In this document: positions 29,596 through 60,277 of the stretch, one piece after another | Numbering within the stretch: the first letter of the stretch is position 1 | Layout of the letters: every line of letters begins with the position of its first letter | Assembly: GCA_017541665.1 (NCBI GenBank) | Contig: JAFXYP010000030.1 | Span: forward strand, 1-64,000 | From: Lentisphaeria bacterium | GTDB lineage: Bacteria; Verrucomicrobiota; Lentisphaeria; Victivallales; UBA1829 | Direction of reading: 5' to 3' | DNA length: 64,000 nt | Made by a program: the position numbers and the translations under genes | Notes under the pieces: model-generated | Database searches by the model: none | What the model was told of the DNA's origin: nothing | The model's input: only the letters and a program-made list of their open reading frames with translations

Positions 29596-29930
29596 GCAGG
29601 CAACGCCTGCGCAGCCGTAGTGTCTGGCTTCGCTCGAGCACGGGACGTGAGAAGTACCCCGTGTGCGAGCGCAGCCGGACACTGTATCGGCACCGCTGCG
29701 GTGTGCTCTCGTCAAGCAGAGCATGGTAACGGCACCGTAAAAAAATAGGACGAATATGACATATAGGTCGTATCCGGCTTATTCGACCTATTCGACCTGT
29801 CTCCTCCGCCCCATCCGCCATATCTGTCCCCCCCCTGTCCGCGCCTCGCGGCTCCGTAATCAGTCGAGCGTGAGCGAGGCTGCCACGGCGGCGAAGCCGC
29901 CCCCAGCAAAGCGGGGACGCGAGCGCGTCC
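29596..29930. repeat. Hairpin-rich non-coding stretch after gcvPB
   Basis: At least four structures lie in this gene-free stretch: GCAGGC/GCCTGC (29596-29610); a 65-bp imperfect palindrome from AGTGTC to GACACT (29619-29683) whose arms match in blocks GGCT/AGCC, CGCTCG/CGAGCG and CACGGG/CCCGTG; GGCGGC/GCCGCC (29887-29901); and GGACGC/GCGTCC (29915-29930). Nothing in 29596-30325 looks protein-coding. The pattern resembles REP-like intergenic repeats or transcription stops. Confidence 0.6.
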
Positions 29931-29988: not shown

Positions 29989-30016
29989 TTGATTTTTCTC
30001 CGACTGCATGTAAATT
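29989..30016 (+). promoter_or_regulatory. Possible sigma70 promoter upstream of the nested palindrome
   Basis: TTGATT (29989-29994), 16-bp spacer, TAAATT (30011-30016). A transcript from here would include the palindrome at 30090-30229 before reaching ATG 30326. Confidence 0.35.
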
Positions 30017-30089
30017 GTTGTTTGGAACCGGGTTCCGCTTCCGCGAAATCCGCTTTCCAAGCTCATTACATCGGTTATTTCAGCAAAAA

Positions 30090-30229
30090 GCACGTGAAAA
30101 CCGACCAAGTTTAGCAATAGCCTTTTTGCTCATAGGATTGAAATACCAGCAGGAGCATTGTGTCCTTGTGCCTTGCTGGGCGTTTCTTTGTCGTTCTATG
30201 AGCAGGTTCTTGGTCGGACCTTCACGTGC
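30090..30229. repeat. 140-bp nested inverted repeat (possible structured RNA or element remnant)
   Basis: Four paired blocks nest inside each other: GCACGTGAA/TTCACGTGC (30090-30098 with 30221-30229), CCGACCAAG/CTTGGTCGG (30101-30109 with 30209-30217), TGCTCATAG/CTATGAGCA (30127-30135 with 30196-30204) and CCAGCA/TGCTGG (30146-30151 with 30174-30179). Transcribed, it would fold into one long interrupted hairpin. It lies about 100 bp before the AT-rich gene at 30326. Confidence 0.65.
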
Positions 30230-30325
30230 ACGCATGGGGAAGCGTCCGGCTTTTTTTATTTTCCGGGCATCTCCTCGTGCGAAGCATCTCAAGCAACCTC
30301 CATCAACCCACACAAGGAGTCCCCA

Positions 30326-31000
30326 ATGAAGTTCGACGTGAAAGATTTCCAATCCCGATTTCCCGAAATGAAACCATTTATTGGCTCTGATTATGAAAGA
30401 GCAAAAGAAAAAGGGTGTGCCTTGCTTGTGATCGGAGAGAGTCACTATTTGCCGAAAGGAAGCACAAAGCATCTAAACCTGGATTGGTACTCTCTGGATG
30501 ATACACGTCTGGATGAAGATGAAAAAGAGTATATTTACACAAGCAAACTGATCAAAGATGATATTTCCAAAAGAGATTTTCAAAGAGAGCATAGTATATG
30601 GAAAAATGGATATCAGCAAATAAACAATGCGGGACCAAAACTTCCAAATTATATTGACTGTTTCAAGTACACGATTTTTTACAATTTCTACTTGCGTCCG
30701 GCAAACAAGGGAAACTCGATCAAAGAACTAAGAACACACGACGATGACGTAATCTCCAATGAGTATTTCGATTGGATGGTTAAGACTTATTCGCCCACCG
30801 GCATTCTTTTCTTTTCGCGATTTGCATACGATAACTGTTGGGCAAAAAATGATCTTCATATTCCAGTTGTCGCAACTCCACATCCCGGATGTCGTTGGTG
30901 GAATCGAAAGAGCGGCAAATATGGCGGACGATACGGACGGGATATTATCGAAGATGTCATGAAAGGAATGAATTGGAATTGGGTTCATCAATGTCATTAA
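30326..31000 (+). CDS. AT-rich orphan protein, possibly uracil-DNA-glycosylase-fold
   Basis: 224 residues, cytoplasmic by lack of signal peptide. I do not recognise the family. Two segments recall the uracil-DNA-glycosylase fold: CALLVIGESHYLP near residue 31, where that fold has its GxDP loop, and VVATPHPGCRWWNRKSG near the C-terminus, where it has its His-Pro motif. This is weak and unproven. AAGGAGT precedes ATG 30326, which is preferred over an upstream GTG-like frame. The gene is clearly more AT-rich than the gcv and metY genes around it and lies between the palindrome and the adhesin-like gene, suggesting recent gain. Confidence 0.7.
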   Translation: MKFDVKDFQSRFPEMKPFIGSDYERAKEKGCALLVIGESHYLPKGSTKHLNLDWYSLDDTRLDEDEKEYIYTSKLIKDDISKRDFQREHSIWKNGYQQINNAGPKLPNYIDCFKYTIFYNFYLRPANKGNSIKELRTHDDDVISNEYFDWMVKTYSPTGILFFSRFAYDNCWAKNDLHIPVVATPHPGCRWWNRKSGKYGGRYGRDIIEDVMKGMNWNWVHQCH

Positions 31001-31112: not shown

Positions 31113-33983
31113 ATGCAATATAACATTTCCGACGGTATTACCAGCGAAGGAATCGTCCTTGATGGCAGCGACGATTTTATGATCGTCCTTGAAGGCGGCA
31201 TAGCGAATAATACCACTGTCAAGGTCGGCTTCGGCCATAGGCTTGGGCTCTATGTTTCCAGCGGTGGCACGGCAAACAAAACCACCGTCAATTCCGGCGG
31301 TTGGATGCTTGTCTCCAGCGGCGGAACGGCAAACAACACCACTGTCAACTCAGGCGGCATGATGGCTGTCTTCAGCGGTGGAACGGCAAACGACACGATT
31401 GTTTATTCTGGTGGCAGTCTTGATTTCTATCCTTCAGCAACAATTAACCGCGCAACAGTCAACTTTGGCGGAAAAATGAGGCTCAATGAGTTGGATGCTA
31501 TAGAAATCAAGGAAAATGGAGGTTATGTGGAAACTGTTTATTATTATGATGATGATGAAAAAAAAAGAGTTACCTTTGTCTCAAATACTTTCAGTGGGAT
31601 AGAACTCATCAATAATTCAGCCTCAGTCCATTCCGGCACAACGGCAAACAACACGATCGTCAATTCCAGCGGCATGCTAATCATTTGGGACGGCGGTGTT
31701 GCAAACGGAACAACTGTCAAGTCCGGCGGTCGGCTCTTTGTCTGCAGCGGCGGCACAGCAAACGACACATTTATTATAAAGAAGGAAAGTATTTATGATT
31801 TTGGAGGGGTAGTCGAAAGCGGCGGAACGGCAAACAGAACAACCCTTGATGATGGTATGCTGTGTATTTCCAGCGGCGGAACGGCGAATAACACAATCAT
31901 CAATTTTGGCGGTTACATGTACGGTTATGAGGCAAACAACACGATCATCAATTCCGGCGGCAGCATGTACTTTTATGAGGCAAACAACACGATCGTCAAT
32001 TCCGGCGGCGAGCTCGAGGTTTCCTGCATGGCAAGTAACACCTACATCAACTCCGGAGGATCTCTTTGGTTTGCTGTAGGGGCTTCGGCAACAATCGCCT
32101 TCAACCCTTGGCAGGGGAGCATTGACCCGGATGTCAAGGAATACATTTCTTATTTGGATCGCGATGCGAACGTCTATTACGGTGGAAGTTTAGGTTTTCT
32201 CAGCAAGGCCGACGTCATGGATTCCATGAACATCATGTCGGGATACAGTGCGATCGTTTATTCCGGGGGCATCATACGCAATACAAAGATATACGCCGCC
32301 GGAACCGTAGAGGTCTTGAGCGGCGGCAAGCTCACCGGTAAAATGAATTTCCTGGGCGGGGCAATCGTCTCCGTCGAAAAAGGAGCCATACTGGATTTCG
32401 ACCTGACGCAGACCGCAGCGGGCGGGAAAGCGATTCTAAACAACTGGTCGCTGATCCAGGGAACGCCGGATTGCGTCCTCACGGTCGGCGCAAGTCAGGC
32501 GTCCGGCATCTACAAGCTCGCGGACAATGCGGACGATTTCGATGGAACAATCACCATCAAGAACACTGTCGGCGAATCGCTCGGCACACTCGCTCTTGAT
32601 CAAACAGTTACGCTTGGCGATACCGACTATACGCTGACCGTTTTGGACGGCATTCTTTCGGTTGCAGTTGGGACGATTGAGCCAGTAGTCCCGAGCTCGC
32701 CGACTGGGCTCAGGGCTTTTGTGGATGGTCAGGATATCGCATTCGTTTGGAGCTTTGATGATCTCTCCGAGATCAAGGAATTTATTGTGAAATACACGCT
32801 TGAAGGGCAGATGTTCTCTGTCACGACTAATGGGACAAACTATGTGCTGAACAATGCTGACTTCGGTTCATACAGCTGGAGCGTGCAGGCGGTGGACTTC
32901 GCGGGCAACGAATCCGCCGTGACCGCCGGCAATGCGTTCAAGGTGTCCGAATTCAAGCCGTATACGGTCGAATACAGCACGGACAATTTCGAGCACACGA
33001 TCCGGATCACGGTCCCCTCGCCCACGCTCAATGCATTCCGCATGCCCGGCGGCACCTACCGGATGCGCGTCATGGCGGCGGACACCGGCGAATGGTTGGA
33101 GGGCGATCCCATCGAAGCCGAAACGTTCGATGATGCCCCGCAGCTCGTCAAGTCCGACGCGGACGGCAATGCGGACGTGTTCTTCGCCACTCCGTCCGGC
33201 ACGTGGGACAGCCGCTATGCCGCGAAGCACACCGGGTTCGCCGGCGAGTGGGCGGGGACCGGCGAGGTCGTTTCCGCGTGCGGCAAGGGCAGGATCCGGG
33301 ACCTTTTCTTCGGTTCCGCCGACCCAAGTACGCTGTTCCTGACCGACTCGGAAAACGGGGACGCCCTTTTCCTGGACGACGTTTTCACCGGGCTGCCGGA
33401 AGAGATCAAGGAGGAGCAGCCTGCCAGGCTGTTCAGGATCCAGGAGATCTATGGCGGCGCAGGCGACGACATCGTGGACATGACCAGCCAGCGTTGCGAA
33501 TACATCGGCGACGGCCTGACGATCCGCGGCGGCGACGGCGATGACGTGATCTGGGCAGTCAAGGGCGACAATATGCTCTTCGGCGACGACGGAAACGACC
33601 GCATCGTGGGAGCGTCCGGCAACGACGTGATCGTCGGCGGCATCGGGAACGACTCCATGCACGGAGGCGGCGGCGACGACGTGTTCGCGTTCTGCGACAA
33701 CTGGGGCGCGGACACGGTGGAACAGCTCGAAACCGGCACGGTCACGCTCTGGTTCGCGTCCGGCGACGAATCGAACTGGAACGAGGAAACGCTGACCTAC
33801 ACGGACGGCGAAAACAGCGTCACGGTCTCCGGCGTCACGGCAGAACAAATCATGCTCAAATTCGGTTCCGGGGACACTCCCGAAGACGCCGCTCAATTCG
33901 CCGCGCTCTCCGGCATCGGCGCGTTCGACGCCTTTACCTCGCAGAGGATCTTCGAGGAATCCGGCACGGGCATCCTGGCTTGA
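31113..33983 (+). CDS. AIDA-repeat protein with C-terminal RTX calcium-binding repeats
   Basis: 956 residues, no signal peptide. Residues 25-410 are AIDA-like repeats of about 20 residues built on SSGGTANNTTVNSGG. Residues 403-520 match the 115-residue module found twice in the protein at 11429 (DFDLTQ, LTVGASQASGIYKLAD, LGTL). An FN3-like domain covers about 525-615. RTX nonapeptides occupy 780-865 (GGAGDDIVD, GGDGDDVIW, GDDGNDRIV, GGIGNDSMH, GGGGDDVFA). The end is GTGILA. RTX repeats plus no leader point to type I secretion; no exporter is in the window. Base use changes sharply near 32870: AT-rich repeats in front, GC-rich behind. The start has only a weak AAGGG site. Confidence 0.88.
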   Translation: MQYNISDGITSEGIVLDGSDDFMIVLEGGIANNTTVKVGFGHRLGLYVSSGGTANKTTVNSGGWMLVSSGGTANNTTVNSGGMMAVFSGGTANDTIVYSGGSLDFYPSATINRATVNFGGKMRLNELDAIEIKENGGYVETVYYYDDDEKKRVTFVSNTFSGIELINNSASVHSGTTANNTIVNSSGMLIIWDGGVANGTTVKSGGRLFVCSGGTANDTFIIKKESIYDFGGVVESGGTANRTTLDDGMLCISSGGTANNTIINFGGYMYGYEANNTIINSGGSMYFYEANNTIVNSGGELEVSCMASNTYINSGGSLWFAVGASATIAFNPWQGSIDPDVKEYISYLDRDANVYYGGSLGFLSKADVMDSMNIMSGYSAIVYSGGIIRNTKIYAAGTVEVLSGGKLTGKMNFLGGAIVSVEKGAILDFDLTQTAAGGKAILNNWSLIQGTPDCVLTVGASQASGIYKLADNADDFDGTITIKNTVGESLGTLALDQTVTLGDTDYTLTVLDGILSVAVGTIEPVVPSSPTGLRAFVDGQDIAFVWSFDDLSEIKEFIVKYTLEGQMFSVTTNGTNYVLNNADFGSYSWSVQAVDFAGNESAVTAGNAFKVSEFKPYTVEYSTDNFEHTIRITVPSPTLNAFRMPGGTYRMRVMAADTGEWLEGDPIEAETFDDAPQLVKSDADGNADVFFATPSGTWDSRYAAKHTGFAGEWAGTGEVVSACGKGRIRDLFFGSADPSTLFLTDSENGDALFLDDVFTGLPEEIKEEQPARLFRIQEIYGGAGDDIVDMTSQRCEYIGDGLTIRGGDGDDVIWAVKGDNMLFGDDGNDRIVGASGNDVIVGGIGNDSMHGGGGDDVFAFCDNWGADTVEQLETGTVTLWFASGDESNWNEETLTYTDGENSVTVSGVTAEQIMLKFGSGDTPEDAAQFAALSGIGAFDAFTSQRIFEESGTGILA

Positions 33984-60114: not shown

Positions 60115-60157
60115 GTTCAAAACCTCATTTGGTGAAAAGAAAAATAAATACCGCTAA

Positions 60158-60186
60158 AAAATACGGCATGATTGCCGATTTTTCAA
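60158..60186 (-). promoter_or_regulatory. Sigma70 promoter of the secretion/pilus operon
   Basis: Minus strand TTGAAA (60181-60186), 17-bp spacer, TATTTT (60158-60163), 43 bp before GTG 60114. Confidence 0.7.
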
Positions 60187-60248
60187 GTCGAAAAGTGAAC
60201 GAATCTGAAATTATTGAAGAAAAAATCGGTTTTTTCTTCCTTTTGCTC

Positions 60249-60277
60249 TTTAAAATCGCACCCGGATGTGGTATATT
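60249..60277 (+). promoter_or_regulatory. Sigma70-type promoter of the phosphoesterase gene
   Basis: TTTAAA (60249-60254), 17-bp spacer, TATATT (60272-60277), 50 bp before ATG 60328. Confidence 0.6.

Follow-up and report, generated by a model that had tools for sequence, protein, structure and literature searches.

A multi-copy structured RNA family of Lentisphaerae bacteria with mutually exclusive conserved helices, a likely leader switch ahead of exchangeable accessory genes

The nested palindrome at positions 30090–30229 of the window (the whole 64,000-nucleotide stretch of Lentisphaeria DNA analysed here) is not a terminator, nor is it a MITE; it forms the core of a hitherto undescribed family of structured RNAs with its own σ70-type promoter, and this family is used repeatedly in gut and rumen Lentisphaerae bacteria. 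Judged from sequence, the RNA is likely to work in cis, as a leader switch governing accessory genes that can be exchanged. If so, bistable leader RNAs of a new family would be in use several times per genome in poorly studied bacteria of the rumen and gut. It is an open question how a host brings newly acquired genes under control, and the same leader placed before interchangeable accessory genes would answer it directly and in a testable way; for ligand discovery, the conserved apical domain of the RNA (P5) would offer a concrete target.

The conserved unit and its distribution

The original prediction described a palindrome of four ordered block pairs with unequal loops, and all of these are present; between blocks 2 and 3, a loop of 17 nt faces one of 4 nt. 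The RNA fold of the plus strand (−67.1 kcal/mol vs −45.1 ± 3.9 in dinucleotide shuffles) is 5.7 standard deviations better than expected (z = −5.7), with none of 200 shuffles equalling it; the minus strand gives z = −5.4. Because the blocks are kept by compensatory changes in 50 relatives, their pairing is far beyond chance. The location is indeed gene-free, between the end of the gene for a glycine dehydrogenase P-protein subunit (about 29595) and a gene start at 30326. The predicted coordinates hold for the palindrome itself and are too narrow for the conserved unit, which extends from 29989 to at least 30281. Its parts, and the gene that follows, are:

29989–30016, plus strand: σ70-type promoter, TTGATT-16-TAAATT
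30020–30062, plus strand: 5′ hairpin P0
30082–30090 (AGCAAAAAG) with 30122–30130 (CTTTTTGCT), plus strand: helix P1
30090–30098 (GCACGTGAA) with 30221–30229 (TTCACGTGC), plus strand: helix P2, block pair 1
30101–30109 (CCGACCAAG) with 30209–30217 (CTTGGTCGG), plus strand: helix P3, block pair 2
30127–30135 (TGCTCATAG) with 30196–30204 (CTATGAGCA), plus strand: helix P4, block pair 3
30140–30144 with 30182–30186 and 30146–30153 with 30172–30179, plus strand: apical domain P5 with a conserved loop, including block pair 4 (CCAGCA 30146–30151 with TGCTGG 30174–30179)
30204–30209 (AGGTTC) with 30216–30221 (GGACCT), plus strand: helix P6, a local hairpin
30213–30219 (GTCGGAC) with 30244–30250 (GTCCGGC), plus strand: terminator-like helix T
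30251–30257, plus strand: U-tract
30231–30249 with 30263–30281, plus strand: hairpin P7, its loop holding the U-tract
30271–30275, plus strand: anti-Shine–Dalgarno (anti-SD) CTCCT, within the 3′ arm of P7
30314–30319, plus strand: Shine–Dalgarno sequence (SD) AAGGAG of the downstream gene, 6 nt 5′ of its ATG at 30326
30326–31000, plus strand: downstream gene (224 aa), of patchy occurrence, with a weak uracil-DNA-glycosylase-like fold match

The promoter (TTGATTTTT...GTAAATTG) is kept in nearly all copies in the genus while its flanks differ, and where a copy has no GC-rich repeat next to it, its DNA homology starts at the promoter. Transcription would start near 30020. Hairpin P0 shows both-side changes in 13 of its 17 pairs, with only 69% of cells paired, and a conserved unpaired stretch, ATCGGTTATTTC, separates it from the palindrome. 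Sequence conservation within the family is highest in P5. The U-tract occurs in nearly all copies, and at some orthologous loci homology stops there.

The GC-rich repeat in the window (29843–29930, ...GAGCGTGAGCGAGGC...CGGCGAAGCCGCCCCCAGC...GGACGC..GCGTCC) is of a type that also lies just 5′ of many RNA copies in the genus, sometimes twice. Directly 3′ of gcvPB there is a separate G+C-rich imperfect hairpin of 77 nt (29613–29689), whose match to a miRNA-precursor model is below the cut-off and reflects no more than a generic hairpin; at two other loci (L117 and L122), gcvPB is likewise followed by G+C-rich sequence of a similar kind.

The genome from which the window derives has five full-length copies of the RNA, and its congeners have one to eight each, according to searches with a covariance model derived from 54 copies (its E-values are rough); as the genomes are metagenome bins, these copy numbers are lower bounds. 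In the phylum, 37 of 194 sampled genomes carry the RNA, nearly all of them members of two families within a single order, with single, weaker matches in the rest of the class and phylum. An exact DNA pattern search also gave matches in the rumen Lentisphaerae bins RUG12414 and RUG555, while exact patterns and blastn revealed no copies in phage, plasmid and IMG/VR collections. Two weak, short covariance-model matches on the minus strand of the window (60115–60255; 15.1 and 6.5 bits) are probably due to chance. Several copies per genome, a conserved promoter and massive covariation thus bear out the earlier suggestion of a structured RNA, rather than a single-copy sequence devoid of covariation.

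No Rfam 15 family matches above its gathering threshold in the window or in 19 loci with copies; over the palindrome, the best weak match is suhB (17.6 bits vs a cut-off of 41). A literature search yielded nothing that matches this RNA. 6S RNA (RF00013) was considered and rejected: its model has no match in 21 relatives while control genomes do match, and the copy number is wrong.

Covariation and two incompatible folds

Across 50 copies, 87.8% of cells pair in the palindrome structure count, and both-side changes affect 350 cells, compared with 120 in shuffles and 46–73 when the partner is slid; these counts rest on alignments inspected by eye, without optimisation. P2 and P4 are each 96% paired, with compensatory changes in 8/8 counted pairs and 8/9 pairs, respectively. 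P3 is 99% paired; its CCAAG/CTTGG is nearly invariant, and in four of its pairs as many as 25 of the 50 copies show compensatory changes. Block pair 2, to which the original prediction could assign no function, is helix P3, one of two mutually exclusive options in a conserved choice.

The other side of this choice involves helices that cannot coexist with those of the palindrome, namely P1, P6 and helix T. P1 (95% of cells paired) crosses P2 and P3 and has bases in common with P4. At positions that belong to P1 only on at least one side, G–C is replaced by U–A in nine copies and by A–U in seven. P6 (99% paired) is a local hairpin that encloses the 3′ strand of P3 and excludes P3; the one pair that belongs to P6 only is T–A in 78 matches, C–G in 20 and mixed in none, with four loci present in both input sets and possibly counted twice. 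Helix T (83% paired), which the U-tract follows, has an invariant 3′ arm; it covaries little, and some copies carry mismatches in it. Since P2/P3/P4 and P1/P6 have bases in common and both sets covary, they bear the signature of a bistable RNA switch; mutually exclusive conserved helices of this kind are what membership of the cis-regulatory leader switches implies.

Switching in the window would need help or be kinetic, as the long-range fold exceeds the best terminator fold in stability by 5 kcal/mol and the best P1+P6 fold by 18 kcal/mol. When prefixes of increasing length are folded, P1 and P5 appear first, followed by P4, P3, P2 and P7. Two other arrangements were considered. An HDV-like nested pseudoknot was rejected, as common bases and loop geometry would make P1 incompatible with P2/P3/P4; pairing between a 5′ A-tract and the U-tract was left as unsupported.

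Beyond the U-tract: P7, the Shine–Dalgarno sequence and the downstream genes

The two arms of P7 match better within than between copies: none of 5000 permutations was as good for 82 copies, again none for the distant copies, and 95 of 5000 for the genus alone, in tests that treat copies as exchangeable although related copies are not independent. P7, like P6, was discovered by inspecting the very sequences later used to test it, and all support is comparative. The copy-specific matching of the arms argues that selection acts, at the RNA level, on sequence 3′ of the putative terminator. In addition, the 3′ arm is complementary to the SD of the following gene, and the copy's own SD is favoured (2 of 5000 permutations as good; mean pairing energy −10.0 kcal/mol with the own gene vs −8.8 with others). 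In the window this arm pairs with AAGGAG at −15.0 kcal/mol, and CTCCT can pair with the SD. This statistical fit to the gene's own SD identifies a candidate expression platform, which in a leader switch acts on either the ribosome-binding site or a terminator.

At six loci (L026, L028, L029, L045, L061 and L062) there is a short reading frame, M(L)LSVRP..., about 45–55 nt 3′ of the U-tract that is conserved. Its SD lies within the anti-SD hairpin and it contains an internal GCCGG/CCGGC hairpin; it may encode a leader peptide or else belong to the RNA itself. At six loci from other genera of this order (L089, L090, L096, L099, L105 and L113), a conserved GCTGGATTTCGCAGCAGAAAGTTGTGG motif is located just 3′ of P7.

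The first substantial downstream gene is co-oriented with the RNA in 80 of 89 scored cases (46:4 in the genus, where the four exceptions have a reverse-oriented next gene, and 34:5 among distant copies). The gaps between RNA and gene contain no promoter-like pair above the shuffled level. The RNA is hence placed as a leader switch would be, just upstream of a co-oriented gene for which no separate promoter is seen above chance.

These observations bear on the strongest rival, a stand-alone, multi-copy small RNA that would end at the U-tract and act in trans, with the neighbouring genes merely carried along. The unit's own promoter, the U-tract after a G+C-rich arm, the several paralogues per genome, and the 5′ hairpin with its conserved single-stranded ATCGGTTATTTC stretch would all suit such an RNA. 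However, P7 is under selection although its 3′ arm lies 3′ of the U-tract, and the SD-matched anti-SD, 80:9 co-orientation and the absence of a second promoter also speak against it; a trans-acting RNA is therefore rather unlikely.

The downstream genes are usually accessory and belong to many unrelated families without a common pathway. Their products include AIDA/RTX adhesin-like, zinc-ribbon/TM2 and Sel1 proteins, PD-(D/E)XK nucleases, an Eco57I-type methylase, GmrSD, caspase-LRR and FGE-sulfatase proteins. At orthologous sites the leader is common and the gene behind it differs, and in several pairs homology ends at or soon after the U-tract. In five congeners, the gcvPB–metB gap consists of a short intergenic region only, and the window's unit is absent; in two genomes (G001 and G004), the gap holds a different gene, for an adhesin, with its own promoter, and no RNA was found there. 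A large AIDA/RTX-repeat adhesin-like gene of the same type lies in the window at 31113–33983. The gene directly behind the window's RNA has homologues in three of the 194 phylum genomes, its own included, and none in the congeners scanned. Its protein has no Pfam match and no relatives in a search of a genome contig collection; the best PDB matches of a low-confidence model belong almost all to the uracil-DNA-glycosylase superfamily (E = 0.014 at best). This gene was probably acquired.

Such exchange of genes behind constant flanks and RNA, the five congeners in which the unit is absent from the orthologous gap, and the accessory type of the cargo could also reflect a DNA recombination or insertion site used for cassette swaps, resembling either integron attC or the attachment sites that lie at RNA-gene 3′ ends. 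The imperfect palindrome with its unequal bulges and adjoining accessory genes does recall attC. Nevertheless, the ends of the palindrome lack the RYYYAAC/GTTRRRY core, and no integron integrase (IntI) scored above the TIGR02249 cut-off in any of 13 genomes, which have only other tyrosine recombinases. The conserved promoter, the RNA covariation, the U-tract and the SD match point to an RNA, and homologous recombination between leaders of about 80% identity would account for the swaps, which makes a dedicated recombination site improbable.

It is more improbable still that the RNA is a component of a defence or toxin–antitoxin unit, as in type III systems. The parts do occur in the same order (promoter, folded RNA, terminator or U-tract, protein gene), and a resemblance to defence genes is seen in some of the genes downstream (GmrSD, Eco57I-type methylase, caspase); yet the RNA is a single unit without tandem repeats, and the proteins fall into many unrelated families and clusters rather than a common toxin family. 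A mobile element of the MITE-like or another non-autonomous kind (or one end of it), which the original prediction had also proposed and which several dispersed copies might suggest, can be dismissed almost entirely, since the window site has neither terminal inverted repeats nor target-site duplications at boundaries that can be compared with five empty congeneric sites, and the copies, whose common block is the promoter-plus-RNA unit, are few, old and 20–25% diverged, with pairing preserved by compensatory change.

A processive antitermination leader of the RfaH/UpxY/LoaP type was likewise rejected: most genomes of the genus have a single NusG. At one locus (L027, G004:C1:181200-188400), two proteins with a NusG N-terminal domain are encoded downstream of the RNA copy.

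Proposed mode of action and likeness to known systems

Sequence statistics support both helix sets, P7, the anti-SD/SD match, the co-orientation and the lack of a second promoter, and a cis-acting leader switch remains the likely reading. The promoter would give rise to a transcript that forms the 5′ leader of the next gene and adopts either the long-range hairpin P2–P3–P4 or the alternative set of P1, P6 and helix T. With the long-range hairpin in place, helix T would be blocked and P7 would fold around the U-tract; GGGGA in the 5′ arm of P7 would then occupy the anti-SD, leaving the ribosome-binding site free and the gene on. Without the long-range hairpin, helix T could take the 5′ arm of P7, and transcription may stop at the U-tract, the presumed terminator; the anti-SD, once released, could pair with the SD and turn the gene off. 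The palindrome would thus correspond to the on state, an assignment based on which helices exclude each other.

The balance between the folds would be set by a signal, be it a metabolite, a tRNA, a protein or temperature, and P5 is the best candidate for its sensor. The nearly invariant CCAAG/CTTGG of P3, the 3′ strand of which would become a loop when P6 forms, may point to a further partner, one possibility being the NCCA end of a tRNA. A broader reading is more tentative: the RNA may constitute a new riboswitch-like class that works as a portable module, in which a common sensor RNA places acquired defence and surface genes under one signal (a second messenger, a tRNA or stress), and each gene brings its own P7 3′ arm and anti-SD.

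Acido-Lenti-1 RNA (RF01687) was also described from Lentisphaerae and is listed as not cis-regulatory (PMC2864571); the present RNA does not match it at the Rfam threshold. In its parts, the unit resembles riboswitches and attenuators that sequester the SD or form intrinsic terminators: it has a promoter, an aptamer-like apical domain, alternative helices, a U-tract, an anti-SD/SD pair and a gene. In contrast to known examples, it belongs to no Rfam class, and its downstream genes have no common metabolic pathway. Like T-box leaders, it would control the next gene, and P6 would expose a UUGGN loop as candidate partner for tRNA NCCA; unlike T-boxes, it has no Rfam T-box match, and the genes that follow are not aminoacyl-tRNA or amino-acid genes.

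Cyclic-di-GMP riboswitch regulons comprise many copies per genome, located before unrelated, often surface or accessory genes. Although the RNA described here does not match the cyclic-di-GMP Rfam model and differs in architecture, it resembles these regulons in being placed, in many copies per genome, ahead of unrelated genes.
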